From NCBI GenBank assembly GCA_946481355.1, contig CAMLNH010000001.1, forward strand, positions 1 through 27,463: a DNA stretch of 27,463 nucleotides, written 5' to 3'. This DNA comes from an uncultured Curvibacter sp. (GTDB lineage Bacteria > Pseudomonadota > Gammaproteobacteria > Burkholderiales > Burkholderiaceae). The position numbers and the translations under genes were made by a program. Position 1 is the stretch's first letter. Each line of letters begins with the position of its first letter. The notes below the pieces were generated by a model. That model ran no database searches and was not told the origin of the DNA. It saw nothing but the letters and a program-made list of their open reading frames with translations. Positions 4,963 to 27,463 of the stretch are shown one piece after another.

Positions 4963-7500
4963 TCATGCCGCGAGTTTGACCGATGCCGTCTCACCCAGAT
5001 AGGCCTGGGCCAGCGCCCCGTCGGCCGCGATCTGCGCCGCCGTGCCCTGGGCCACGATGCGCCCGCCCTCGATCACATAGGCGCGGTCGGCCAGCGCCAG
5101 CGCCAGACCGGCCATCTGGTCCACCAGCAAGAGCGTCATGCCCTCCTTGCGCAGCTGGTCCAGTGCGGCAAACAGCTCGGCAATGATCTTGGGCGCCAGG
5201 CCCAGCGAAGGCTCGTCCAACAGCAGGATGCGCGGGCGCGACATCAGCGCACGGGCAATCGCCAGCATCTGCTGTTCGCCACCCGAAAGCAGGCCAGCCC
5301 GCTGGTGCAGACGCTCGCGCAGGCGCGGGAAGCGCTGCAGCTGCTCCTCCACCCGCGCCTCGCGGTCCGCGGGCTGCAGGAAGGCGCCGAGGCGGATGTT
5401 GTCGAGCACGCTGAGCTCGGGGAAGACCTGGCGCCCCTCGGGCACCAGCACCACACCCTGGGCCACCACCTGCTCGGCACCCAGGTTCTTGAGCTCACGG
5501 CCTTCGAGGTGGATGCCGCCCTGCACGGGCCGGTGCAGACCGGCCAGCGCCTTCATCAGCGTGGACTTGCCCGCGCCATTGGCGCCCAGCAAAGCAACGA
5601 CCTCGCCCTGGCGCACCTGCAGGTCGATGCCGTGCAGCACGGGCTCGGCACCGTAACCGGCCACCAGCGCGCCCACACCCAGCATCTCAGGACGCTCGGT
5701 GGTGTCGGCGGCGCGGGGTCCGCTGCCCTCCAGCGACTCACCCAGATAGGCCTGCTGCACGGCCGGGTTGGCCTGCACCTCGGCGGGCGTGCCCACGGCC
5801 AGGCGCACGCCGGCGTCGAGCACCACCACCTGGTCGCTGATCCCCATCACCAGGGTCATGTCGTGTTCCACCAGCAGCACGGTCACGCCCGCGTCGGCAA
5901 TGCGGCGCAGCAGTGTGCCCAGACGTTCCTTGTCCTCACGCGAGAGGCCGGCTGCAGGCTCGTCGAGCAACAGCGCCTCGGGGTCGCTCGCGAGCGCGCG
6001 CGCAATCTCCACCAGGCGTCGGTCCACATGCGGCAGGTCGGCCGCCAGCGTGTCCGGTTGCCCCGTATAGCCACAGTACGCGATCAGCTCGCGGGCGCGT
6101 GTGGTGAGCGCCGGATCGACACGCCCCGCCGCGCCCAGCAGCGGGCCCAGGCGACCGCGGTGCATCGCCAGCACCACGTTGTCCAGCACACTCAGGGAGC
6201 CGAAGAGCTGCGAGGTCTGGTAGGTGCGCGCCACGCCGCGGCGCGCGATCTGCATCGCGCTCTGGCCGGTCAGGGGTAGATCACCCAGCGCAAAGGCACC
6301 GGCCGTGGGCAGGTAGAAGCCACCCAGCATATTGAGCGCGGTGGACTTGCCCGCGCCGTTGGGCCCGATCAGGCTGGTCACCGCCGCCGCAGGCGCGCTG
6401 AAGTGCAGGTCCGACACGGCGCGCACGCCGCCGAACTGCATGGTCAGGCCCTGGGCCGCGAGCGACTGGCGTGCACGCTGCGGCAGGCTCAGCGTCTCCA
6501 CCCGGGGCACCGCGGAACCGATCGGCGCCGCCGGCCACAGGCGCAGCTTGAGGCGCCGCGCCAGGCCCGCCACACCATCGGGCGCCACCCAGAGCACCAC
6601 GAGCAGCAGCACGCCGAAGAAGAGCAGACGATATTCCTCCATGCCGGCCAGCAGCTCGGGCAGCAGGCCCACGATGACCGCGCCCACCAGCGGACCGGCC
6701 ACCGAACCCGCGCCGCCGAGCATGACCACGAGCACAAAGAGGATGGACTGGATGAAGCCGAAGGTGTGCGGCGTGACAAAGCCCGAGAGCGGCGCAAACA
6801 GCGCCCCCGCCGCGGCCGCGCAGAGCGCGGAGACCGCAAAGGCCACGGTCTTGATCGCCAGCGGGTTCAGGCCGATGGATTCGGAAGCCGTCTCGGCATC
6901 GCGCACCGCGCGCATGGCCGCGCCCCAGGTGCCGCGCGAGAGCCAGGCATAGACCGCCAGCGCCAGGCCAGCAGCGGCGATGGCCAGCAGGGCCATGGCG
7001 CGCTCGCCCTGGGCCAGGCCGCCCAGCGCCGGGCCCGTGATGCCCATGATGCCGTTCTGTCCGCCCGTCAGCGCACCGGCCTCGACAATGCCGTGCTCGA
7101 CGATGAAGCCGAAGGCGATGGTGATCATCGCCAGATAAGGGCCCTTCACGCGCAGCGCGGGCAGCGCCAACAGCGCACCGCAGACCGCACCCAGCACGGC
7201 CGCCAGCGGCCAGGCCAGCCAGAAGCTCACCCCGGCCTTGCTGGTCAGGATGGCCACGGTGTAGGCCCCGATGGCATAGAAGCCCACGTGGCCGAAAGAC
7301 ATCTGGCCCGTGAGGCCGATGAGCACATTGAGGCCCACGCCCACGATGGCCAGCAGCGCCACCTGGGCCAGCACGAAGACCCAGTAGCCGTTGAGCGTGA
7401 GCGCCAGGCTGGCACCCAGGCCCAGCACCAGCATGAAGGCCAGAATCTGCAGCGGCGAGCCCAGACCCAGCAGGGCAACCTTCTTGTTCTTCATGGTCAT
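4963..7500 (-). CDS. LivM-LivG-LivF fusion: branched-chain amino acid-type ABC permease plus two ATPases
   Basis: One uninterrupted frame of 845 residues joins three transporter components that are normally separate. Residues about 1-315 are a LivM-like permease with many membrane helices and the family loop [19 protein letters not shown]. Residues about 345-590 are a LivG-like ATPase (Walker [10 protein letters not shown] at 379-387, [11 protein letters not shown]alker B, LLVEHD). Residues about 605-840 are a LivF-like ATPase (GANGAGKST at 639-647, LSGGEQQ signature at 738-744, LLLDEP). The first ATPase has LPHVD where LSxGQ is expected, so the two ATP sites may not be equivalent. The start ATG overlaps the LivH stop (ATGA) with GGAGG upstream. 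It probably imports the substrate delivered by the LivK-type protein. Confidence 0.93.
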
Positions 7501-8375
7501 ACCTTCTTCACCTCCGCACGGCCGAAGAGGCCGTTGGGCCGCCAGGCCAGCGCCGCGATCACGAGCGCGAAGGTCAGGATCTGCGTGTAGCCCGAGCCCA
7601 GGGTCGAGGTGATGGTCGCTTCCACCAGACCAACGATCAGCCCGGCAATCATCACGCCCCAGGCGCTGGTGATGCCGCCCAGGATGGCCACGGCAAAGGC
7701 CTTGAGGCCGAACAGCGTGCCCATGTCCGAATGCACATTCATCAGCGGCGCGATCAGCACGCCGGCAATGCCCGCGAACAGCGCGGAGAGTGCGAAGGCC
7801 AGCGCCACCGCGCGGCGGATCGGGATGCCCATGAGGCGCGCGGCCGCACGGTTCTGCACCACGGCCAACATGGCCGTGCCCCAGCGTGTGCGCCGTGAGA
7901 TGTAGTGCAGCACTGCGGCCAGCGCCAGGCCCACGACGGGGATCAGCAGCTGCAGCGGGTACACACCCAGACCCAGACCACCCACTTCCAGCGGCGACTG
8001 CGCCAGAGGCGACGGCAGGCTGCGCGGCTCCTTGCCGTAGGTGGCCATGACCAGGTTGTCGAGCACAATCCCCAGCGCCACCGTGGCCATGAGCCAGGCG
8101 TCCGAGCCGCGGTTCACGAAAGGACGCACCGCCAGCGCTTCCACCAGCAGACCATAGGCCGCACACAGGGCCAGGGCCAGCAGCACCGCTGCGTAGCCCG
8201 GCCAACCGAAGGTCTGCGCGAAGGTGTAGGTGAGCACCGCGCCCAGCATCATGGAGCTGCCCTGGGCAAAGTTGACCGTGCCGCTCACGGCATAGGTCAC
8301 GTAGAACCCCAGGGCCATGAGCCCGTACATGCTGCCCAGGCCCAGGCCGCTGACCAGCGCGGATAACACCAGCAT
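7497..8375 (-). CDS. LivH-type ABC transporter permease
   Basis: This 292-residue inner-membrane permease of the branched-chain amino acid/urea uptake class starts MLVLSALVSGLGLGSMYGL, a typical LivH beginning. It carries the family patterns GTVNFAQGSSMMLGA, the ABC-contacting loop (AVVQNRAAARLMGI) and LKAFAVAILGGI. About eight hydrophobic segments are visible. AGGAG lies about 9 bases before the ATG. It pairs with the LivM part of the downstream fusion, whose start overlaps its stop by 4 bases. The substrate cannot be read from the sequence. Confidence 0.93.
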   Translation of the reverse strand: MLVLSALVSGLGLGSMYGLMALGFYVTYAVSGTVNFAQGSSMMLGAVLTYTFAQTFGWPGYAAVLLALALCAAYGLLVEALAVRPFVNRGSDAWLMATVALGIVLDNLVMATYGKEPRSLPSPLAQSPLEVGGLGLGVYPLQLLIPVVGLALAAVLHYISRRTRWGTAMLAVVQNRAAARLMGIPIRRAVALAFALSALFAGIAGVLIAPLMNVHSDMGTLFGLKAFAVAILGGITSAWGVMIAGLIVGLVEATITSTLGSGYTQILTFALVIAALAWRPNGLFGRAEVKKV

Positions 8376-8405
8376 CGTCGCGTCTCCTCTTCTTTACCCA
8401 AAGAC

Positions 8406-9587
8406 TCAGTTCAGGCCCACGGGCACGATCTTGTTGTCGATGAACTGCGCCCAGACGTAGTCATCGGCCTGCACGGCGTCGTGTACGTCAGCGGTGAAGG
8501 GCTTGACGTAGGTCTTGATCAGGCCTTCGTACTTGTCGATCTTGTAGAAACCCTGGCGGATGTCCTCGCCCTTGGTGGAGCCGGCGGCCTGGATGGCCAG
8601 CGCCGTCAGGTGCACGCCGTCATAGGCATTGGCCACGCCCACGGCCGGGGAGATGTCGCCCGGACCCTTGACGTTGGGGTACTTGGCCATCATGGCCTTG
8701 ATCACGCGCTCACCCACGGGCGACTGCTTGCCGAAGAAGCTGTAGGTCTGCACGAAGTGCACGTCCTTACCCATGGGGCCAGCCAGCTCGGTGAAGCGGC
8801 CACCAGCCGGGCCCCAGTGCGAGACCACCGGTACCTTCCAGCCCATGCGCTCGAGCGACTTGACCACCTGGGCCGAGGGGCCGACGTTGCCCACCATGAA
8901 CAGCGTGTCGGCACCCGCGGCCTTCAGGCGCGTAAGTTGCGGCACCATGTCCACGTCGTTGCCTTCGAACTTCTCCACGCCGGCGGGCGTCACGTTCTTG
9001 GCGGCCATGGCGGCCTTGAGCCCTTTCTCGTTGCTCTCGCCCCAGGGGTTGTTCACGAGGATCAGGCCGGGCTTTTTGGTCTTGAAATTCTTCTGCGCGT
9101 AGGCCAGCATGCCCACGTCCACGATCTCGTCCACCGCAGACACGCGGAAGGCGAAGTTGGGGTTGGCACCGTTCTTGGTGATGCCCGTGCCTGCGGCCCA
9201 GGGGCCCATGAAGGGCACCTTCTCCTGGTTCATCAGCGGCACGATGGCCATGGACACCGGCGTGTCCAGGCCGCCGAAGACCACGGCCACCTTCTCGCGG
9301 TAGATGAGTTCGCGCGCGGCCACCACGCCCTTGGCGGGGTTGGCCTCGTCGTCGCGGCGCACCAGTTCCACCGGGCGGCCCAGCACGCCGCCCTTGGCGT
9401 TGATCTCGTCGATGGCGATCTGCATGCCGCGCGTGATGGCTTCGCCGGCCAGGGCCGACTGGCCCGAGAGCGCGGTGACCAGGCCGATCTTGATGGGTTC
9501 ACTGGCCAGCGCCGGCGTGGCAGCGGCCAGCGCCAGACCGGCAGCCAGCAGGGTACGGCGGCCGAAGGAGAAGGAAGTACGGGTCAT
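8406..9587 (-). CDS. LivK-type periplasmic substrate-binding protein
   Basis: This 393-residue binding protein for an ABC importer begins with an export signal that includes an arginine pair (FGRRTLLAAG) and a likely cleavage after TPALA, leaving SEPIKIGLVTALSG as the mature start. The twin Arg could mean Tat export, although Sec is also possible. The type I periplasmic fold of the Leu/Ile/Val group is clear (IAIDEINAKGGVLGRP, then VAVVFGG, MGPWAAGTG and PAVGVANAYDGV). The start at 9587 is fixed by AGGAG 8 bases upstream; an upstream in-frame extension to 9776 lacks this and reads through the promoter region. It heads the minus-strand operon LivK-LivH-LivMGF-AtzH-like and is divergent from the catabolic genes. 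The substrate is probably the compound processed by the neighbouring amidase and deacetylase-like enzymes. Confidence 0.9.
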   Translation of the reverse strand: MTRTSFSFGRRTLLAAGLALAAATPALASEPIKIGLVTALSGQSALAGEAITRGMQIAIDEINAKGGVLGRPVELVRRDDEANPAKGVVAARELIYREKVAVVFGGLDTPVSMAIVPLMNQEKVPFMGPWAAGTGITKNGANPNFAFRVSAVDEIVDVGMLAYAQKNFKTKKPGLILVNNPWGESNEKGLKAAMAAKNVTPAGVEKFEGNDVDMVPQLTRLKAAGADTLFMVGNVGPSAQVVKSLERMGWKVPVVSHWGPAGGRFTELAGPMGKDVHFVQTYSFFGKQSPVGERVIKAMMAKYPNVKGPGDISPAVGVANAYDGVHLTALAIQAAGSTKGEDIRQGFYKIDKYEGLIKTYVKPFTADVHDAVQADDYVWAQFIDNKIVPVGLN

Positions 9588-9814
9588 GGCAGGACTCCTG
9601 TAAAGGGGGTGGATGCGGGCAGGCCCGCGGGCCCCTTCTGCCATGCAAGGGCCGTGCCAGTGTCGCCATAGCGGATATTTCTTTGTATTCATTAAGATAT
9701 TCAGATTGTTGACAAGATGGCACACTCTTTGCACGCACTTGGATGGAACGCCCCCGGCGGCACCCGTCTGGTGCATGTGGCACCAAAGCGGGGAAGAAAC
9801 GAGAGGAACTGACC
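9588..9814. promoter_or_regulatory. Divergent promoter region between transport and catabolic operons
   Basis: The 227 bases between the two divergent start codons hold an AT-rich core (about 9665-9720) that stands out from the GC-rich surroundings. Visible elements are a consensus-like TTGACA (9709-9714) inside the small palindrome TTGTTGACAA (9706-9715), and two GATATT copies 22 bases apart (9674, 9696). No convincing -10 box pairs with the TTGACA, so exact promoters cannot be set. Confidence 0.5.
9769..9785. promoter_or_regulatory. Candidate operator, inverted repeat TGGTGC-N5-GCACCA
   Basis: TGGTGC and GCACCA are perfect 6-base inverted repeats separated by ATGTG, placed just upstream of the GAGAGGA ribosome binding site of the NTF2-like gene. 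GntR/FCD regulators bind short palindromes with TGGT/ACCA-type ends, and such a regulator is encoded at the end of this operon. The match to that regulator is an inference. Confidence 0.4.
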
Positions 9815-18678: not shown

Positions 18679-19272
18679 CTACTTCTTCGCATCCAGATCC
18701 CGGCGAAACTTTGTCGCGGCCAGTTGCGCCGCCTTCACAGCCTGGATACCCACGTCCAGCCGGCGTCGTACTACCGAGGGATGCCATTTCCCCTGTTCGG
18801 ACTGAGCCAGCGCTTGCTGGAATTCAGTCAAGACTTGAGCCCGTGTCCGCAGGCCATAGGTCAGTGCGGATTCAATCTGCTCAGCATCATTGAGACGCAG
18901 CTCCGCCCCGACCTCGCGCACACTTTTGCTGAGCCGCATCACGACGCGAAGAAGCTCTGTGGAGAGCTGCTGGAGATACTGCCGCTCCTCAGCACTCGGA
19001 GGATTTTCTGGCACGCTGTCCAGAAGCACCACAGCGCTTGCCTCCAATGCATAGAGTTCCTTGCGCAGGCGATCGACCGCCCGAACCAGTTGGCCTCGCT
19101 TCTCAGTCTCTACGACCTTGTCGATCTGTTCATTGAGCTTGGCAAACCAGGAGACCATCTGCGACACCCCATCCAGGGGGTCCCAGTCTGCTTGTGCAAA
19201 AGAGGGTTGCGCCTGCGTCAAAGCTGCAACGGCAACCAGCACCATCCCGATAGCGCGGCGCACCGCTCTCAT
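18679..19272 (-). CDS. Exported helical protein of unknown function
   Basis: This protein has 197 residues, with a signal peptide (basic MRAVRRAIG, hydrophobic core, probable cleavage after Ala26 in PSFAQA). The mature part is almost wholly helical and charged, with regular heptad-like stretches (residues about 45-190), so a periplasmic coiled-coil or helical bundle is likely. I do not recognise the family. Its start overlaps the stop of the small membrane protein gene (ATGA), and GGGGGA lies 6 bases upstream. The pair is probably one operon with a structured leader. Confidence 0.75.
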   Translation of the reverse strand: MRAVRRAIGMVLVAVAALTQAQPSFAQADWDPLDGVSQMVSWFAKLNEQIDKVVETEKRGQLVRAVDRLRKELYALEASAVVLLDSVPENPPSAEERQYLQQLSTELLRVVMRLSKSVREVGAELRLNDAEQIESALTYGLRTRAQVLTEFQQALAQSEQGKWHPSVVRRRLDVGIQAVKAAQLAATKFRRDLDAKK

Positions 19273-19719: not shown

Positions 19720-20571
19720 CTAACGCGCCGACCCGCTGATCGCCCCCGCCCGCGGCTTCATCCCGCGCAGCGCCGGGAAGTCCGCCTTGCAGCGCACGCC
19801 GGCCGGCAGCGCCGACGCGGTGTTGGGCAGCTCCAGGCGCACGCCGAAGGTGCCGCTGGCGGCGTCGAAGACGCTGTCGACGATGGTGACGGTGGCCTTG
19901 TAGCTGCCGCCCAGGGCTTCGGGCGTGATGTCGGCGGTGCTCAGGCGCTTGATCTGGCCATAGGCCTCAATGGGCAGCACCACTTCCACGCGCAGCGGGC
20001 GCACCTGCGCGAGCTTGAGGATGGGCTTGCGGCCCGTGCCCGATTCGGCCAGGTCACCGGGGTTGAGCAGGCGATCCACCACCACGCCCTCAAAGGGGCT
20101 GCGCAGGGTGCGGCGGCTCAGCGCTTCCTGCGCCTGGCGGTATTCGAGGCGGGCCACTTCCAGCTCTTCCTGTGCCTCCTTGTAGGCGGACTCGGCCAGC
20201 AGCTTTTCGGCCTGGGCTTCGTCACGCGCCTGCGCGGCCACGAACTCCTTGCTGTGCAGTTCCTGCGAGCGTTCGTATTTCTTGCTGGTGTAGTCGAGCC
20301 GGTTCTTGGCCGACTGCAGGCGGCCGCTGACCTGGGCGCGGTATTTGGCCAGCTCCACGCTGGACTGTTCCACCGAAGAGTCGAGCTGCACCAGCACCTG
20401 GCCGGCGCGCACGCGGTCGCCGCGCTTGACCAGCACGTCGTGGATCACGCCTTCCACGGGGCTGCGCAGCTCTACGGTCTGGTTGGGTTCGATCAGGCAG
20501 TCATAGGGATTGGCCTGGGCGCTGCCCAGGGCGCAGGCCGCGAGGGCCAGCAGAGGCTTGTGTTTCATCAT
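19720..20571 (-). CDS. Exported HlyD/RND-type periplasmic adaptor protein
   Basis: This 283-residue membrane-fusion-type adaptor has a cleavable signal peptide (MMKHKPLLALAACALGSAQA, then NPYDC) in place of a membrane anchor. It has the split lipoyl domain (first half LRSPVEGVIHDVLVKRGDRV at about 35-65, second half LRSPFEGVVVDRLLNPGDL at about 157-178), a helical hairpin between them (about 70-155) and a C-terminal barrel. Such adaptors link an inner-membrane exporter to an outer-membrane channel. The ATG at 20571 (or 20568) follows AAAGGTGA and overlaps the stop of the SecA-like gene. It is the last gene of the SapC/SecA-like operon. No TolC-type gene follows within the window. Confidence 0.88.
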   Translation of the reverse strand: MMKHKPLLALAACALGSAQANPYDCLIEPNQTVELRSPVEGVIHDVLVKRGDRVRAGQVLVQLDSSVEQSSVELAKYRAQVSGRLQSAKNRLDYTSKKYERSQELHSKEFVAAQARDEAQAEKLLAESAYKEAQEELEVARLEYRQAQEALSRRTLRSPFEGVVVDRLLNPGDLAESGTGRKPILKLAQVRPLRVEVVLPIEAYGQIKRLSTADITPEALGGSYKATVTIVDSVFDAASGTFGVRLELPNTASALPAGVRCKADFPALRGMKPRAGAISGSAR

Positions 20572-22592
20572 TCACCTTTCCCTGTGAAGGCCAGCGACTG
20601 GTCGAGCTGGCGGTCCTGCTGGAGGTTGCTCAGGCGCACCGCGGTGTGGCGGCGCTCGGTCATCCACTGGGCCAGCCAGCGCAGCGCGGTGCTGGCCCCG
20701 GCGGGCAGACGCCGGCCTTCACTCAGCAGACGCTGCAGCAAGGCCGTGGGGCCGGGCACGGCGACGGTGAAGACCTCGTCTTCGAGCGAGACAATGGCCT
20801 GGCAGCTGCCAGCGTCGCCCTGGCGCGCGCTGCGGCCGAAGAGCTGGCGGTCCACGCGGCGCGAGTCGTGGAATTCGGTCAGGATGACGTGCAGGCCGCC
20901 GCGCGCGTCCACGCCCTCGCCGAGTTCGATGTCGGTGCCGCGGCCGGCCATGTTGGTGGCCACCGTCACGCGGCCGGCCTGGCCGGCTTCGGCCACCACG
21001 GCGGCTTCGTCGGCGTCCTGCTTGGCGTTGAGCAGGGCGTGGGCGATGCCGCGGGCCGTGAGCACGGCACTGATCTGCTCCGAGGCGCGCACCGAGCGCG
21101 TGCCGATGAGCACGGGCCGGCCCTGCGCCGCCAGGGCCTGGGCCGAGGCGGCCACGGCCTCCCACTTGGCCTGCAGCGTGGGCAGCAGCACGTCGGGCAG
21201 GTAGACGCGGCGCGAGGGGCGGTTGAGCGGCACGCGCACCACCTGCAGGCCGTAGACGGTGCGGATCTCGCGCGCGGCCTCGGCGGCGGTGCCCGTCATG
21301 CCCGAGAGGTGCAGGTAGCGGCGGAACAGGCGCTGGTAGGTCAGGCGCGCCAGGGTCTCGCGCCGCGGCGTGGGGGCCACGCCTTCCTTGGCCTCGATCA
21401 TCTGGTGCAGGCCGCGCTCCCAGGAGCGGTCGGGCATGAGGCGGCCGGTGGATTCGTCGACGATCTGCACCTTGTCCTCGGCCACCACGTACTGCTCGTC
21501 GCGGCGGTACAGGTGCAGCGCGGCCAGGGCCTGGCGCAGCCGTTCCTCGCGGGCCCGCGGCGAGGTCCAGACACCGCCCAGCGTCTCGGCGTGTGCCTCG
21601 GCGTAGTCGTCGAGCCGCGCCTGGCCGGCCTCGGTGAGCACCACGCGGTGGGCCTGCGGGTCCACGCGGTAGTCCTCGCCCTCTTCCAGCTCGGCCGCCA
21701 GCGCCAGGGCGGCGGTGCAGTCGGCCGTGTCTTCGGCGCCGCCGCGGCTGGCCGAGAGAATGAGCGGGGTGCGGGCTTCGTCGATGAAGACGCTGTCGGC
21801 CTCGTCGACCAGCGCGTAGTAGAGGCCGCGCATCACCAGCGCCTCTTCGCCCTCGGCCTGGCCCCGCAGCACGCGCGCGGCCTGGTGCAGGCGGCTGCCG
21901 CGGCCCTTGATGGCCACGCGATCGCGCAGGTAGTCGAAGGCCACTTCCTTGTTGGTGGCGTAGGTGATGTCCTGCGCATAGGCCGCGCGGCGCAGCGGCT
22001 TTTCCATGCCCTGCACGACCACGCCCACGCTCAGGCCCAGGAAGTCATAGAGCGGTTGCATCTTCTCGGCGTCGCGCCGAGCCAGGTAGTCGTTGACGGT
22101 GATGACGTGCACGGGGTAGCCAGCCAGGGCCACGGTGCAGGCCGGCAGCGTGGCGCAGAAGGTCTTGCCCTCGCCCGTGGCCATCTCGGCCAGGCGCCCG
22201 CGCAGCAGCGCATCACCGGCCATGAGCTGGCTGGCGAAGTGGCGCTGGCCCAGGCTTCGCGCAGCGGCCGAACGGATGAGCGCAAAGGTCTCGGCCACGA
22301 GCTCGGGGGTGTAGCCCTGGGCACGCAGGCGCGGGCGCAGGCTGGCGGCCAGGGCGCGCAGTGCGTCGTCGCCCAGCGCGTCCATGGCGTCAGAGCGGGA
22401 CAGCGCATCCTGCGCCACGCGGCGCATCACACGCAGGTCGCGCTGCAGCAGCTCGCGCAGCGGCGCGAGCAGGGTGCTGTCGAGCGCGAGCGCGGTGCGG
22501 TCGTGCCACTGCAGCTCGGGCCGTGCGCGTTCGGCATAGGGGCAGGCACGGGCCCAGTGCTGCGAGCTGTAGGGGAGCGCGAGGCTGGACAT
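20568..22592 (-). CDS. Short SecA-like translocase ATPase
   Basis: This 674-residue SecA homologue is distinct from the roughly 900-residue housekeeping form. It keeps both motor domains and the preprotein cross-linking region: Walker A MATGEGKT (137-144), TVNDYLARRDAE, TYATNKEVAFDYLRD, VDEADSVFIDEARTPLILS (262-280), GLHQMIEAKEGV, SGMTGTA (430-436), TNMAGRGTDIELG (546-558) and SRRVDRQLFGRSARQGDAGS (577-596). DEAD replaces the usual DEVD, and GRSARQGD the usual GRSGRQGD. The chain ends soon after motor domain 2, at the beginning of the scaffold helix, so most of the helical scaffold and wing domains and the zinc tail for SecB are absent. The start is the ATG at 22592, 14 bases after the M50 gene. 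It probably energises export of a specific partner. Confidence 0.9.
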   Translation of the reverse strand: MSSLALPYSSQHWARACPYAERARPELQWHDRTALALDSTLLAPLRELLQRDLRVMRRVAQDALSRSDAMDALGDDALRALAASLRPRLRAQGYTPELVAETFALIRSAAARSLGQRHFASQLMAGDALLRGRLAEMATGEGKTFCATLPACTVALAGYPVHVITVNDYLARRDAEKMQPLYDFLGLSVGVVVQGMEKPLRRAAYAQDITYATNKEVAFDYLRDRVAIKGRGSRLHQAARVLRGQAEGEEALVMRGLYYALVDEADSVFIDEARTPLILSASRGGAEDTADCTAALALAAELEEGEDYRVDPQAHRVVLTEAGQARLDDYAEAHAETLGGVWTSPRAREERLRQALAALHLYRRDEQYVVAEDKVQIVDESTGRLMPDRSWERGLHQMIEAKEGVAPTPRRETLARLTYQRLFRRYLHLSGMTGTAAEAAREIRTVYGLQVVRVPLNRPSRRVYLPDVLLPTLQAKWEAVAASAQALAAQGRPVLIGTRSVRASEQISAVLTARGIAHALLNAKQDADEAAVVAEAGQAGRVTVATNMAGRGTDIELGEGVDARGGLHVILTEFHDSRRVDRQLFGRSARQGDAGSCQAIVSLEDEVFTVAVPGPTALLQRLLSEGRRLPAGASTALRWLAQWMTERRHTAVRLSNLQQDRQLDQSLAFTGKGE

Positions 22593-22606
22593 GGTGAATG
22601 CCCCGT

Positions 22607-24766
22607 TCACACTTGGAAGTGCGAGAGGAAGAGGCGACGGATGTCGCGGTACCACTGCCGGGCCAGGGGCTCGGGCGGGTGTTCGAAGCGCGCGTGGATG
22701 CGTTCGCCGAAGTACACGGGCGGGATCTCGCCCGCGGGGCCGTCGGCCAGGGCCACGTCGAACTGGAAGGTGCGTTCCAGCGTGCGCGCGCCCTGGTTGT
22801 CGCGCGGGTCGATAGCCAGCCGGCCGCCGCCTTCGACGGAGAGCACGCGGCTGGGCAGGTATTCGTCGCCCCCGGGCACCTCGCGCTCCAGCCGGCCGGC
22901 CAGCACCTGCTCGGGCTGATGGGCCAGGCGCAGCTCCACGCCGCGCGTGGCGCCGCGCACCAGATCGGCTGCGTCCTGGCCCACTACCACACGCGCCAGC
23001 AGGCGCGGCTGGTCCAGCACATAGCCGAGCAGCTCGCCCTGGCGGTAGTGGCGGCCCGGCATGTCCTGCGCGCGGGCGACGACGAAGACGCCACTGGCCT
23101 GGGCGCGCACCTGCTGCTGCGCGAGCCGGCTCTCGCGGATAGCCAGGCTCTCTTCGGCCGCCTGCAGCTGCTCGCGGGCGATGGCGGCCTGGGCGCGGTC
23201 GGTGGAGAAATGCGCGCCGTGGATGGCGCGCAGCTCGGCCACACGGGCGCGAGCGCTGGCCACCTCGGCCTCCAACTCGGGGTTGTGCAGGGTCAGCAGC
23301 AGTTCGCCGGCCTGCACGTTGCTGCCCGGGCGCGCCACGAGTTCGACCACGAAGCCGCCCTGGCCCGCGCGCACCAGCGACTGCTGGGGCAGCCAGGCCA
23401 CGCCCTCGGCCAGGGTACGGAAAGGCATGGGCACGGCGAAGAGCAGCAGGGCCAGGCCGGCCAGCACGCCGCCGGTGACGCCCCAGACGCGGCGGCGATA
23501 GGGCAGCAGGCGCGGGCTGCTGCCCAGGTGTTTGACACCCTTGCCCAGGGGGATGAGCATCATGCTGGCCACGGCCCAGAAGGCCAGCAGCACGCCGATG
23601 AAGAAGAAGCCGCTGGCGATGAAGAGCGCGATGGCGATGGTGACGAAGACGCGGTAGAGGGTGGACAGCACGCCGTAGGCCGCCAGCCAGAGCTTGTCGG
23701 CGCGGCGGGTCTCGGCGGTCTCGGCCTCGCTCACGCCGAAGGCATAACGTTCGATCAGGTAGCCCCAGTAGCGCAGCGCGCGCTGCGCGAGGTTGGGCAT
23801 CTCGATCAGATCGGCCAGGATGTAATAGGCGTCGTAGCGCAGCAGCGGGTTGCCGTTGAAGACCAGGGTGGAGACGCCGGCCACGAGCATGACGTTGAAG
23901 AGCACGGCACGCAGGAAGGACGGCTCCAGCAGCAGCCAGGCATAGAAGGCCAGCGCGGCGATGAAGAGCTCCACCACCATGCCGGCCGCGCCCACGAGCG
24001 CGCGCTCGTACTTGTTCTTGAACACGCTGGAGGCCGAGGCCTCCACATAGGGCACGGGCATGAGCACGAGCAGCACCACGCCCAGGTCATGCACCTCGCC
24101 GCCGCCGCGCTTGACGGCCACCGCGTGGCCGAGCTCGTGCAGGACCTTGAGCGCAGGAAAGACCAGCAGCAGCATGAGCAGGTTGTCGGTGGCGAGCACG
24201 CGGTCGGCGAAGTTGCCGGTGAGCGCCTCCCACTGCGAGGGCAGCAGCAGCAGCGCGGGCAGCACCACGACCAGCCAGAGCAGGCCGCCCCAGCGGCTCC
24301 AGACCTTGTGGATCAGGGGCTGGAAGCGGTTGAGCAGCGCATCCGGGTCCCAGAGGTGGATGCGGATGGCCATGGGGTTGAGCCAGGACTTGCGCCGCGT
24401 CTGGCGCTCCTGCTTCTCGCCGCGCTCGAAGAGCTCGACCGCATCGGGCAGGGTGTCGCTCTGCAGCAGGTCGGCGCCGTGCAGCTGGCCGAGCAGGCGA
24501 ATCACCTCGTCCTGGCTGGGAGCGTCGTCACCGAGTTCGCGGTTGGCCAGCTCCCAGACCTGCTGCACGGTGCGCTGGCCGTCCATGGCGGCGATGAGGA
24601 AGCGCGCCGAGGGCGTGAAGCGGTGGATGCGATTGCTCACCGGGTCCTGCAGCAGGTACCAGAGCTCGCCGCGAAAGCGCATGCGGTGCAGCCGGGCATG
24701 GCCGCGCAGGCGCGGGCGCACACCGGCCACGCGGTACCAGTTGGTGGAGAGCATGGAGTCGCTCAT
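22607..24766 (-). CDS. PqqD-like / M50 zinc metalloprotease / lipoyl-domain membrane protein
   Basis: This 719-residue membrane protein resembles putative peptide zinc metalloproteases (YydH-like). Residues about 25-105 look like a PqqD-type winged domain (LWYLLQDPVSNRIHRFTPSA, then a helical end), the fold used for peptide recognition. Membrane segments follow, with the zinc site HELGH (210-214) and NPLLRYDAYYILADL (306-320, Asp312 as probable third ligand), both typical of site-2 proteases. Further helices (to about 455) lead to a HlyD-like part with a lipoyl half (LVRAGQGGFVVELVARPGSN) and a helical hairpin. The residues needed for protease activity are present. It starts 16 bases after the adaptor gene and ends 14 before the SecA-like gene. 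It probably cleaves or guides the exported substrate. Confidence 0.88.
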   Translation of the reverse strand: MSDSMLSTNWYRVAGVRPRLRGHARLHRMRFRGELWYLLQDPVSNRIHRFTPSARFLIAAMDGQRTVQQVWELANRELGDDAPSQDEVIRLLGQLHGADLLQSDTLPDAVELFERGEKQERQTRRKSWLNPMAIRIHLWDPDALLNRFQPLIHKVWSRWGGLLWLVVVLPALLLLPSQWEALTGNFADRVLATDNLLMLLLVFPALKVLHELGHAVAVKRGGGEVHDLGVVLLVLMPVPYVEASASSVFKNKYERALVGAAGMVVELFIAALAFYAWLLLEPSFLRAVLFNVMLVAGVSTLVFNGNPLLRYDAYYILADLIEMPNLAQRALRYWGYLIERYAFGVSEAETAETRRADKLWLAAYGVLSTLYRVFVTIAIALFIASGFFFIGVLLAFWAVASMMLIPLGKGVKHLGSSPRLLPYRRRVWGVTGGVLAGLALLLFAVPMPFRTLAEGVAWLPQQSLVRAGQGGFVVELVARPGSNVQAGELLLTLHNPELEAEVASARARVAELRAIHGAHFSTDRAQAAIAREQLQAAEESLAIRESRLAQQQVRAQASGVFVVARAQDMPGRHYRQGELLGYVLDQPRLLARVVVGQDAADLVRGATRGVELRLAHQPEQVLAGRLEREVPGGDEYLPSRVLSVEGGGRLAIDPRDNQGARTLERTFQFDVALADGPAGEIPPVYFGERIHARFEHPPEPLARQWYRDIRRLFLSHFQV

Positions 24767-24782
24767 GGTCGTTGCCCGCGCT

Positions 24783-26708
24783 TCAGCCGAACCACTTCCA
24801 GGCCCACAGGCGCAGCCAGTCGACGAAGGGATGCGTCCAGATCCAGATCAGGCGGCGCTCGCCGATCTCGACCTTGCCGATGCCTTCCAAGCCCGGGCGC
24901 AGCACGGCCGCCGAGGGATCGAGCCGGGCCTCGACGCGGAAATGGTTGCGCCCGTCCTGCGGCACCGAGATGGGGGTGATGCGCTCTACCGTGAAGGGCA
25001 GGCGTTCGTAAGGCAGGCCCGAGAGCGCGAGCTCGCCGCGCTGGCCCAGCTGCACATCGCCGATGTTGCGCTCGTCCACCTGCAGGATGACGCGGTAGGC
25101 GTCGAGCGGCGCCACCTCGAACAGCAGCTTGCCCTGCTCCACCGGCGAACCCAGTTGCTGGCTCAGGTCGCCCTGCACCACGATGCCGTCGAAGGGCGCA
25201 GTGACCAGGGCGCGCGCGATGCGCTCTTCGGTCAGCGTGAGCTGGGCGCGGGCCTGGTCAACCTGGGCCGAGGTCACGGCCATGGCCGCACGGTCCGACA
25301 CGGCCGCGGCCTGGCGGTAGCGGCGCTGGGCCTGCTCGACCTCGGCACGCCAGCGCAGCTGTTCGAGCTTGAGATCGCGGTCATCGAGCCGCGCCAGCGG
25401 CTGGCCCGCGCGCACGCGGTCGCCCGGGCGCACAAAGCTCTCGGCGACGAAGCCCTGGAAGGGCGCGGCCAGGGCGCGCTGCACCTCGCCCTCGACCACG
25501 GTCTTGGCTGAGACGCGGTAGGTGCCGTCGACCAGGCTGAAGAACAGCAGCACGGCCACGCCCAGTGCGGTCAGCAGCTTGAGGCCCGGGTGGTCGGGGC
25601 CGAAGAGGCTGGTGGCCGCATGGCGCCAGGCGGCCGTGACGCGTTCGCGCAGGCTGCGCTCCTGCTGGCGCTTGAGGTCGAGCACCGAGCCGAGCAGGGT
25701 GCCCAGGGCTTCGCAGAGCGCAATCTCTTCCTCGGCAAAGGGACGCTCGCGCGCACGCTCGAAGGTCAGCGCGCCCACCATGACACCGTCGTTGCGCAGC
25801 GGCACGGAGAGCACGGCGCTGTCCTGGCGCGCAGCCGAGAGCGCGGCGTGCGCCAGGCCGGGCACGCTGTCGCTCTGGCGCGGCGGGTGCACGACGGAGA
25901 GGTCGAGGTCCCAGACCTCGTCCATGGCCTCGGCCAGCAGGCGCACGAAGTCGGTCCGTGCGTCGAAGGTGGCGGTGTGCGAGATGGCCTGCACGCGCAC
26001 CGAGCCGCCCTGCTCGAAGCCCAGGGCCACGCGCTGGCAGTCCAGGCGTGCGGCCAGGTCGTTGACCACGGCCAGGCAGGCCGCGCCCAGGCGCTCTTCC
26101 TGCAGCGCGGTGGCCACGGTGTCGGTGGCCAGCGAGAGGCGCGTGACCAGCTGGCGCTCGCGCTGCACGAGCTGACGGCGGAAATGGTCGATGAGCCAGG
26201 CGCTGCCCCAGTGCAGCAGGCGCAAGGCGAGCTGTACCTCGGGCTCGGGCCGGGACGTGAGGTCCAGCACCACGGCGCCCTGCAGCTCGCCCTCGATCTC
26301 CAGCGGATAGGCCACGTGGGTGGCCAGGCTGGCCGTGCTGCCCTCGCCGGCCGCACCGGGCAGCACCACGCCGCGGCGCTGCGTGAGCGCGGCCTGCGCG
26401 GCCGGCCCGAGGTGCATGAGGTTGCGCCCGGCGTCGGGCCAGAAGGCGGCCGGCACGTAGCTGCGATCCGCTTCGGCCAGCAGCACCAAGGCGCCGCGCA
26501 CGCGCGGCACCTGCAGGCAGAGGATGGCCAGCCAGCTGGCGCAGAAGGCCCGGGTGTCGCTGGACTGGTTCAGCCCGGCCCAGGCCGATCCGTCGGCCGC
26601 GGCTGCGCTGGCCGAGGCTGCCGGCGATGCGGCAGACGATGCAGCGGCAATGCCGCCGCTGTCGGGGGCGGCGGTATCGGTGTGGGCGTAGATCGGTGCG
26701 CTGCTCAA
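24783..26708 (-). CDS. GAF-GAF-TM-HlyD adaptor fusion protein
   Basis: This 641-residue protein joins a cytoplasmic sensor to an export adaptor. After an Ala/Ser-rich start (12-40) there are two GAF-like domains (about 55-175 and 205-345), a helix, one membrane segment (LKLLTALGVAVLLFFSLV, about 376-393), then a HlyD part: first lipoyl half (AAPFQGFVAESFVRPGDRV, 414-432), helical hairpin (445-500), second half (VTAPFDGIVVQGDLSQQLG) and barrel domain, ending WAWKWFG. The only start that keeps the full frame is a TTG at 26708 with no ribosome binding site, directly after an in-frame TGA; the true start could lie further in. It is followed 16 bases later by the M50 gene. The GAF ligand is unknown. 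Confidence 0.85.
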   Translation of the reverse strand: MSSAPIYAHTDTAAPDSGGIAAASSAASPAASASAAAADGSAWAGLNQSSDTRAFCASWLAILCLQVPRVRGALVLLAEADRSYVPAAFWPDAGRNLMHLGPAAQAALTQRRGVVLPGAAGEGSTASLATHVAYPLEIEGELQGAVVLDLTSRPEPEVQLALRLLHWGSAWLIDHFRRQLVQRERQLVTRLSLATDTVATALQEERLGAACLAVVNDLAARLDCQRVALGFEQGGSVRVQAISHTATFDARTDFVRLLAEAMDEVWDLDLSVVHPPRQSDSVPGLAHAALSAARQDSAVLSVPLRNDGVMVGALTFERARERPFAEEEIALCEALGTLLGSVLDLKRQQERSLRERVTAAWRHAATSLFGPDHPGLKLLTALGVAVLLFFSLVDGTYRVSAKTVVEGEVQRALAAPFQGFVAESFVRPGDRVRAGQPLARLDDRDLKLEQLRWRAEVEQAQRRYRQAAAVSDRAAMAVTSAQVDQARAQLTLTEERIARALVTAPFDGIVVQGDLSQQLGSPVEQGKLLFEVAPLDAYRVILQVDERNIGDVQLGQRGELALSGLPYERLPFTVERITPISVPQDGRNHFRVEARLDPSAAVLRPGLEGIGKVEIGERRLIWIWTHPFVDWLRLWAWKWFG

Positions 26709-26773
26709 GAGGTCACGTCGGCGGTTGTCGGGGCGGCCCGGAATTCATCTCCCGTCTCCGGGCCGCGGGCATG

Positions 26774-26794
26774 GTGGGGCGAACCGCCCCCCAC
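26774..26794. other. Hairpin between the SapC and GAF-HlyD genes
   Basis: GTGGGGCG (26774-26781) can pair with CGCCCCCCAC (26785-26794) around a 3-base loop, with two bulged C. It sits in the 90-base gap between the SapC stop (26799) and the adaptor start. No T-run follows, so it is more likely an mRNA-processing or stability element, or a weak stop, than a full terminator. Confidence 0.35.
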
Positions 26795-26798
26795 GTGG

Positions 26799-27463
26799 TC
26801 AGCCGGAGGTGACGGCCGCGCCCTTGCGGCGACCGCTGGCCGCCGGCGCCGGTGCGGCGGCAGCTGCAGGGGCCGCGGCAGGCGCGGGGGGGTCTTCTGC
26901 CGGCGCGGCGGGCGACTCGGCGCGGCTGCGCACGAGACGGTCCTTGACGGCGTTGAAATTGCGCATGGACTGCAGGTGCAGGTAGAGCAGCTCCAGCTCG
27001 TCGGTGGCGGCCAGCTCGGCGAGCTTGTCACCGGGCAGCTTCTTGAGACGGGCACGGTCCACGACGTGGAAGCCGGTGAGCGTCATCTTCTCGCCCTGGG
27101 GCAGGGTGAACTGGGCCTGCATGGGCTCGACCAGATCGAGCGCCTTGAGCTTGGCGCAGAAGGCGCGCGTGCGCTCGAACTGCAGGCGGTATTCCTGCAG
27201 GAACTTGAGCACGTTGTCCACATAGGGTGTGGCCTTGCCGTCGGCACCGAACAGCGCCTGGCCCTTGCCCTGGTAGTTCAGGCCCTGGAAGGCCTCGTCC
27301 ACGCAGAGCGTGAAGGTCTTGTCGTCTTCGCTGGACGAGAAGACGAAGGGGTAGCGGCGGATGAAGGCGGGGATGTAGCTGGCCTTCCAGCTGTCGTCGT
27401 CGTTGACGTAGAGGTTCTCGTTCTTGCTCGCACCCAGGATGACCACGGGCACCAGTGCATCGC
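26799..27463 (-). CDS. SapC family protein, N-terminus outside the window
   Basis: The frame is open to the window end and gives 221 residues without the natural start. It matches the SapC family: LVPVVILGASKNENLYVNDD, then SYIPAFIRRYPFVF, CVDEAFQGLN, GKATPYVDNVLKFLQEY, RTRAFCAKLKALDLVEPMQA, FTLPQGEKMTLTGFHVVDR and ELELLYLHLQSMRNFNAV. SapC was named for the surface-layer locus of Campylobacter fetus; its biochemical role is unknown. Here it has a Pro/Ala-rich tail of about 40 residues ending in a basic GRRKGAAV, which I infer to be a flexible linker. About 65 N-terminal residues are likely missing. It is upstream of, and in the same direction as, the adaptor-M50-SecA-like-HlyD genes. Confidence 0.88.
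   Translation of the reverse strand, partial: DALVPVVILGASKNENLYVNDDDSWKASYIPAFIRRYPFVFSSSEDDKTFTLCVDEAFQGLNYQGKGQALFGADGKATPYVDNVLKFLQEYRLQFERTRAFCAKLKALDLVEPMQAQFTLPQGEKMTLTGFHVVDRARLKKLPGDKLAELAATDELELLYLHLQSMRNFNAVKDRLVRSRAESPAAPAEDPPAPAAAPAAAAAPAPAASGRRKGAAVTSG

Follow-up and report, generated by a model that had tools for sequence, protein, structure and literature searches.

A candidate ABC-less, type-1-like exporter of LEPR-tagged giant proteins combining a site-2-type protease, HlyD adaptors and a short SecA paralogue

The window, the 27,463-nucleotide stretch of Curvibacter DNA analysed here, contains one tight minus-strand operon encoding a SapC-family protein, a GAF-HlyD adaptor, a PqqD-like/M50/HlyD fusion protein, a short SecA paralogue and a further HlyD-type adaptor. 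The first-pass annotation described five same-strand genes, four of them overlapping or within 16 bases, and the spacing bears this out: gaps of 90 bases (SapC/GAF-HlyD) and 16 bases (GAF-HlyD/M50) are followed by overlaps of 49 bases (M50/SecA) and 4 bases (SecA/HlyD). The SapC-family protein (PF07277; 26799..27461, minus strand) matches the Pfam SapC model from profile position 53 (187.8 bits, 2.6e-55). Its gene is cut by the window end, with the 5' end outside, and the orthologue in the closest relative (L009) has 282 residues and 92% identity over the portion inside the window. We read this protein as a soluble helper. The GAF-HlyD adaptor of 641 residues (24783..26708, minus strand; Pfam GAF, HlyD_3 and HlyD_D23) has a Pfam GAF domain at residues 209-341 (25686..26084, minus strand) and, in a TM scan, a single strong TM-like stretch at residues 375-393. 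The last gene encodes a second HlyD-type periplasmic adaptor of 283 residues (19720..20571, minus strand), which is RND-adaptor-like (TIGR01730, 127.3 bits with a cut-off of 94.9). HlyD domains, as in the membrane fusion proteins of type 1 secretion systems (T1SS), are present in three operon proteins.

The fusion protein of 719 residues (22607..24766, minus strand), identified by Pfam, NCBIfam and motifs, has eight TM-like stretches by hydropathy. Its HELGH zinc motif (residues 210-214; 24125..24139, minus strand) and NGNPLLRYD motif (residues 304-312; 23831..23857, minus strand), the Asp of which we take to be a zinc ligand, are both intact, in agreement with the earlier reading of an intact site-2-type protease. 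The corresponding site-2 protease signatures, HExxH and NxNPxxxxD, are each found in 86/86 M50 ORFs longer than 650 residues. The proposed PqqD-like front domain (residues 38-101; 24464..24655, minus strand) and the M50 domain score below the Pfam cut-offs in the window protein alone (21.5 and 21.0 bits), but among 16 family members Pfam PqqD matches 13 and M50 all 16 at E <= 0.01. The best NCBIfam relative of the fusion is NF041824, at 143.3 bits with a cut-off of 300.

The short SecA paralogue (20568..22655, minus strand) has 695 residues when its start is taken at GTG, and the true start may be further downstream. It keeps the ATPase and preprotein domains of the SecA family (Pfam NBD1, preprotein cross-linking domain and NBD2) with a Walker A motif, GEGKT, at residues 161-165 (22161..22175, minus strand); Walker A and Walker B patterns occur in 75/75 complete short SecA ORFs. 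Aligned to the 918 positions of canonical SecA, with domain borders that we assumed for the comparison, the short form has a mean occupancy (n=75) of 0.60 at positions 651-675, 0.00 (rounded) at 676-900 and 0.01 at 901-918. It is almost empty past position 675 and therefore stops ahead of the two-helix finger, wing and C-tail, parts that define the canonical SecA translocase. Four SecA2 models also matched the protein, each with a score below its cut-off: TIGR03714 (474.8, cut-off 930), TIGR04397 (547.3, cut-off 1085), TIGR04221 (427, cut-off 725) and NF012136 (386.3, cut-off 1100).

An ABC exporter and an outer-membrane channel had been noted as missing from the window. Pfam and NCBIfam profiles identified no ABC exporter among the operon genes, and neither an ABC exporter nor a TolC gene was seen by eye among the other ORFs of the window, three of which were also run against Pfam. 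As no TolC-type channel gene was seen in the window, the proposed channel would be encoded elsewhere in this organism. The earlier suggestion of a TolC gene beyond the window fits the related loci, some of which contain one (15/88 by tblastn with two TolC queries).

The gene unit is widespread and represents more than a chance association. A SecA match was found in 84/88 loci anchored on the M50 protein, a set that includes 8 hand-picked plasmid loci (77/80 without them), so the outcome named beforehand as refuting, a lack of conserved co-occurrence in other genomes, was not observed. The GAF-HlyD gene lies immediately upstream of M50 in 78/81 loci with room, and the order GAF-HlyD - M50 - SecA is found again in Alpha-, Beta- and Gammaproteobacteria and in MAGs titled Desulfobulbaceae, Nitrospira and Rokubacteria. 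Strains with such loci include Methylorubrum rhodesianum DSM 5687, Thioclava pacifica DSM 10166 and Luteibacter rhizovicinus. Distances among the M50, SecA and GAF-HlyD proteins agree (Mantel r 0.91, 0/999 permutations). DUF3467 stands in place of SapC in other lineages; the models of both match no known fold, and the roles we assign to them are therefore guesses.

A giant repeat or RTX gene usually adjoins the unit. The giants of these loci are repeat- and RTX-rich and range from thousands to about 15,000 residues. The first-pass annotation had placed a possible cargo outside the window, and in L009 a giant RTX gene indeed lies directly upstream, ending 47 bases before SapC. ORFs of at least 1000 residues occur inside 8 kb in 45/75 loci with room, a count that includes three judged by their ends to be other genes (L031, L080, L083) and leaves out the giant annotated in L002. 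Of the 8 plasmids fetched, 6 have annotated giants measuring 12 to 39 kb beside the unit. Giants beside the SecA-containing unit carry an N-terminal LEPRxLLSAD-type tag, which is absent at the annotated start of the SecA-class giant in L142. The LEPR-XLL model (NF012209, E <= 0.01) matched in 33/36 genomes with the loci versus 0/14 controls; relatives reach its cut-off of 17 bits, and the cargo of the window organism itself lies outside the window. A LEPR frame and M50 share one contig in 25/33 genomes, with gaps, from coordinates typed by hand, of less than 8 kb (n=20), 10.6-11.6 kb (n=3) and 21.6 and 28.7 kb (n=2). A Sec signal peptide is hardly discernible at the giant N-termini, with a hydrophobic maximum (KD15) of at most 1.33 in 28/29; higher values are recorded for L098 (2.12) and L145 (1.75). 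Several SapC-group giants also have C-termini with a common NPNxxLR-like end.

Co-occurrence was also examined in 200 genomes of one order, taken from shared handles to be the same set in the LEPR, M50 and SecA searches. LEPR giants and M50 occur together in 21 genomes, M50 only in 5, LEPR only in 2 and neither in 172 (Fisher p 1e-21), and a second SecA and M50 together in 24, M50 only in 2, a second SecA only in 0 and neither in 174 (p 5e-29); because the compared genomes are related, these p-values overstate independence. The 5/26 M50 genomes in which LEPR had no match at E <= 0.001 are G051 (distant type, 28% identity), G088, G150, G189 and G217, and the LEPR-only genome G129 has a distant type of M50. 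The LEPR match in G130 was rejected as chance, as it sits in a 23-residue frame. At most five candidates per genome were scored for M50 and for SecA, so copy numbers are lower bounds; read in this way, G051, G052, G173, G176 and G189 have more copies of M50 than of additional SecA. Among 240 genomes of the Bradyrhizobium DOA9 class (250 requested), the M50 profile gave 9 matches, 8 of them weak (E 1e-66 to 1e-94), and the strong type is therefore patchy there; LEPR was found in 2 genomes, both among the 9.

A distant family, with M50 proteins 27-29% identical to that of the window, resembles the window unit in its M50-HlyD fusion, further adaptors, TolC and giants with a LEPR-like tag. Its gene set (M50-HlyD/HlyD/HlyD/TolC) adjoins giants of Ig-like, tandem-95 or DUF4347 type. 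It differs in that no annotated SecA, SapC or DUF3467 is present in the four plasmids fetched, and in its tag, LE[PA]Rx..D[AG]A, with [FY]D[AG]A where the SecA class has L[SN][AGS]D. Tag class tracks M50 class; on the more tentative reading given at the end, this sister class would show that leader and exporter split together. Within the main family, SecA is missing beside M50 in L006, L046 and L062, and also at G052:C2 in L127, where the giant bears the tag. Together with the distant family, these loci weigh against the reading favoured below, as they imply that the unit has no strict need of a SecA in cis. We found no published description of the distant family.

The link of the giants to the exporter unit is strong, and what the unit exports is probably one of these tagged giants rather than a small peptide. 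The earlier idea of a hybrid route dedicated to one particular protein or peptide is accordingly supported in part, by neighbourhood and co-occurrence, for a giant protein. We favour, as a fairly probable reading, that the operon is a dedicated ABC-less, type-1-like exporter of LEPRxLLSAD-tagged giants, with a motor derived from SecA feeding it. The cytosolic cargo would be kept or passed on by SapC (by DUF3467 in other lineages), and the M50-HlyD membrane protein would bind the tag of this cargo through its PqqD-like domain. The short SecA, without the parts that work in SecYEG, would then thread the chain into a complex that M50-HlyD and GAF-HlyD form in the inner membrane; the HlyD parts of both, with the separate HlyD protein, may build a duct across the periplasm to a channel of the TolC type, and the intact site-2 protease may cut off the tag or free the chain. 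This scheme, drawn from gene content and motifs, predicts a physical complex, tag recognition, outward transport energised by SecA, cleavage by the protease and a surface location of the cargo.

It is improbable that the dedicated SecA instead pushes the giant via SecYEG to the periplasm, with M50-HlyD, GAF-HlyD, HlyD and TolC acting in a second step. Characterised SecA paralogues do work with a SecY channel, and SecA-less relatives could rely on the housekeeping SecA, but the short SecA is almost empty past canonical position 675 and a clear hydrophobic signal is absent from 28/29 cargo N-termini. Slightly less probable still is that an ABC exporter encoded outside the locus carries out conventional type 1 secretion of the giant, which the operon only processes, senses or retains. 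RTX repeats are usual for type 1 substrates, and T1SS can carry cargo of more than 8000 residues according to the available part of a review (PMC8277102). Against this, an ABC-type ORF within 6 kb was found in only 2/87 loci (strict motif; ORFs kept by the ORF picker), the unit comes with adaptors, and in some loci with a TolC gene, and the conserved tag is N-terminal with a class that tracks M50 type. That efflux adaptors, SapC and a SecA paralogue are ordinary neighbours together by history, with no common function, is largely refuted and very improbable. Genes for HlyD and SapC are indeed frequent in other contexts, but a second SecA occurs in 0/174 M50-negative genomes of the order and the gene order recurs in the lineages listed above.

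The proposed SecA-fed exporter shares features with several known systems. Like T1SS (HlyB-HlyD-TolC; LapBCE; SiiCDF), it has HlyD adaptors, TolC in some loci and giant RTX or Ig-like repeat cargo with scant evidence of a Sec signal peptide; unlike them, it has, in place of an ABC exporter, an ATPase of the SecA type together with a membrane protein of the M50 family, and its giants carry their conserved tag at the N-terminus. As in accessory Sec (SecA2), a second SecA seems dedicated to particular proteins, but the window-type SecA is tied to HlyD/TolC and truncated. Site-2-type RiPP proteases (daptide HExxH, YydH/LiaK) likewise combine a PqqD-like part with an M50 core; the window protein falls far below the NF041824 cut-off, has an extra HlyD domain and has a giant partner, not a small peptide. 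The sapDEF genes of Campylobacter fetus are T1SS genes, and we know of no M50 or SecA at its sapCDEF S-layer locus. That locus includes a gene of the same name, sapC, and is called essential for the S-layer in the available part of PMC4943207.

The exporter is not described in the available parts of PMC4943207, PMC10868602, PMC9611531, PMC12153261, PMC5018854 and PMC8277102, and we found no description of it, nor an export route for LEPR-XLL giants, in the open-access literature outside preprints. We suggest tentatively that it could be a categorically new machine, in which a SecA-derived ATPase independent of SecYEG moves proteins as long as about 15,000 residues in a single step through a conduit of site-2 protease, HlyD and TolC, with an RRE-like PqqD domain reading the N-terminal LEPRxLLSAD leader as in RiPP enzymes. 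Few bacterial proteins are larger than the LEPR-XLL giants. The energised parts named in the available portion of one review are ABC, RND and MFS (PMC8277102); a SecA motor joined to HlyD and TolC would, if true, be a new way of energising a tripartite exporter, and a SecA working without the two-helix finger would reveal which SecA parts are required for chain movement.

The five-gene order proposed in the first-pass annotation was confirmed, with all genes on the minus strand; the first three are spaced by 90 and then 16 bases, after which neighbours overlap by 49 and 4 bases. Domain searches likewise agree with its naming of the products as SapC (truncated by the window end), GAF plus HlyD, PqqD-like plus M50 plus HlyD (M50-HlyD), SecA and HlyD. 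PqqD and M50 scores in the window's own M50-HlyD are below Pfam cut-offs; in the family (Pfam, E <= 0.01) PqqD was detected in 13 and M50 in all 16 of 16 members. Downstream of the operon, a small minus-strand ORF (18679-19272) has no family matches and no relatives among the 88 loci described below. Elsewhere in the window, 4963-9776 (minus) appears by eye to be an ordinary ABC importer operon for branched-chain amino acids, binding protein included.

To assemble related loci, M50-HlyD was used as bait. A tblastn search matched 71 plasmid records; in 16 of them the match covered 80% of the query or more, and eight of these 16, chosen after their annotation had been seen, were fetched; an M50-HlyD alignment scanned over one genome per species confirmed at least 570 relatives, and the best 80 were kept. 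Counting tblastn matches (E <= 1e-4) at any position within these 88 loci, SecA was matched in 84 (77 of the best 80 genome loci alone), DUF3467 in 30, SapC in 18, both of the latter in two, and TolC in 15. Of the 81 loci with enough upstream sequence, 78 have GAF-HlyD immediately upstream of M50, and a SecA-labelled ORF lies within 1.6 kb downstream in 75/82; L072, with no ORF labelled M50, was left out of these counts, and the L023 sequence stops just past M50. Among the seven loci missing the downstream ORF, three (L006, L046, L062) have no SecA match anywhere in the locus and four (L011, L022, L033, L040) have a match with the ORF broken or lost in ORF picking. Sequence distances of M50, SecA and GAF-HlyD correlate (Mantel r 0.91, 64 sets), as expected of a co-inherited unit, with species history also contributing. 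A strict motif search of the picked ORFs in 87 loci gave only two ABC-type ORFs within 6 kb of M50 (L027 11285-13072 and L035 16475-18271), both in MAGs titled Sulfuritalea.

Residues 71-630 of the window SecA align to positions 16-550 of a PDB SecA chain, which we take to be that of B. subtilis. The window's short SecA and 74 complete ORFs from the loci, 75 sequences in all, were aligned with three housekeeping SecAs; they span the ATPase and preprotein domains and peter out before position 676 of the 918 canonical ones. On the domain borders we assume, they have no two-helix finger, wing or C-tail. Of seven whose ends were inspected, six terminate three to four residues after LAF[ST]G. Because these two domains are kept and Walker A and B patterns occur in all 75, ATP hydrolysis and chain binding can be expected. 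Catalysis by M50 appears to be under selection, since HExxH and NxNPxxxxD are retained in 86/86 M50 ORFs longer than 650 aa; the protein also carries eight TM-like stretches and a C-terminal HlyD part. PqqD folds serve RiPP enzymes as leader-binding elements. SapC and DUF3467 mostly occupy the same operon position in different lineages, and the models of both failed to match any known fold; our guess is that they are cytosolic helpers. Ramlibacter paludis (L011 6399-8064) has a tandem pair of SapC genes between cargo and GAF-HlyD, and in Alisedimentitalea (NZ_CP123586.1 183557-184354) a divergent SapC gene lies on the giant's far side, with the rest of the unit downstream of the giant.

It is highly probable that the unit is linked to giant proteins as its cargo. 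Annotated giant genes of 12 to 39 kb adjoin it in six of the eight plasmids, and 45 of the 75 loci with room have an ORF of 1000 aa or more within 8 kb, a count that includes L031, L080 and L083 (likely other genes, judging by ORF ends), that missed the annotated giant of L002 and that draws on many short contigs. In L009, the closest relative, whose M50 is 96% identical to the window's, the giant is read in two frames of 2474 and 6534 aa, which overlap and together span ~3.8-30.8 kb of the contig, and it stops 47 bases ahead of SapC; the portion within L009 has 17 Pfam RTX stretches and, near its end, a weak metalloprotease-like stretch (E 0.017). Because this giant adjoins SapC, the window operon's own predicted cargo gene very probably lies just past base 27463. 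Giants of the SapC group (L009, L010, L011, L012, L013, L016) share a C-terminus like DFVNH...RNPNAxLRVxI, possibly a second signal, and the ends differ in other groups.

The giants bear the NCBIfam LEPR-XLL motif (NF012209), which was found (E <= 0.01) in 33 of 36 genomes holding unit loci, drawn from 37 of the best 80 genome loci, versus 0/14 controls, in open frames reaching 15,161 aa. Frame and M50 could be placed on one contig, by its length or by coordinates, in 25/33 genomes, separated by less than 8 kb in 20, by 10.6-11.6 kb in three, and by 21.6 kb (G001, the gap occupied by a second frame of its giant) and 28.7 kb (G010, M50 itself split) in two. The motif lies 20 to 120 residues past the first possible start, and the tag's commonest letters are E-A-L-E-P-R-[VL]-L-L-S-A-D, with Asp in 29/29.

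Co-occurrence was also counted in 200 genomes from the order to which Ramlibacter paludis belongs, presumably Burkholderiales. At cut-offs of E <= 0.001 (LEPR), 1e-50 (M50) and 1e-100 (second SecA), LEPR occurred in 23 and M50 in 26, the two together in 21 while 172 had neither, and a second SecA in 24, all M50-positive, and in 0/174 M50-negative genomes. Co-occurrence p-values were 1e-21 (LEPR/M50) and 5e-29 (second SecA/M50), the genomes being related and the trials not independent, and genomes with more M50 copies tended to have more extra SecA copies (Spearman 0.75). The exceptions to LEPR/M50 pairing fit in part: G129, lacking a close M50, has a distant one ~4 kb beyond a giant's frame that bears another tag, the G130 match sits in a 23-aa frame and the G051 M50 is of distant type; G088, G150, G189 and G217 stay as exceptions.

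Four fetched plasmids (Kosakonia, Azospirillum, Variovorax, Niveispirillum) carry a sister class of M50-HlyD, 27-29% identical to the window's, in TolC - HlyD - HlyD - M50-HlyD operons adjoining Ig-like, tandem-95 or DUF4347 giants and with no annotated SecA nearby. Its tags read LEPRMMFDAA, LEPRMLFDGA, LEARYMFDAA, LEPRLMYDAA, LEPRLLFDGA and LEARIAFDAA (the Azospirillum giant has none at its start), versus LEPRxLLSAD or LLNAD in four of five SecA-class plasmid giants read. That tag class and exporter class change together is the best sign that exporter parts may read the tag; by analogy with RiPP enzymes, the PqqD-like domain might, at a guess, bind it. The sister class also argues against an absolute need for SecA, being driven by something else, perhaps housekeeping SecA or proton-motive force. 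Thalassospira (L006) has an M50 inside the SecA-class branch with no SecA beside it and LLSAD kept; the giant of G052:C2 (L127) is tagged EPRIMYSAD, with no SecA found at the locus. Small 'tail fiber' proteins of ~200 aa near SecA-less M50-HlyD loci are annotated at L128 10062-12169, with similar ones seen by eye in L132 and L133.

Passages of a major review (PMC8277102) name three kinds of energised component for tripartite machines, ABC, RND and MFS, and those of PMC10868602 and PMC9611531 that contain the term LEPR-XLL mention a giant protein or transcript; we found no account of the system in the published open-access literature searched. One rival has the giant pass SecYEG first; the short SecA lacks the part thought to drive chains into SecYEG, and a simple hydrophobicity scan found no Sec-like signal in 28/29 cargo N-termini, the exception being L098 (hydrophobicity 2.12). 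The other has a distant ABC exporter carry the giant; the unit itself contains none, and in this differs from type 1 secretion. Nor does the unit belong with accessory Sec systems, as its SecA passes no SecA2 model. One-step, tagged, SecA-fed, HlyD/TolC-bridged export is the most likely reading, with the chances about even that the one-step route runs via M50-HlyD, and, although by its parts it is not a type 1 system, the unit may well work like one.
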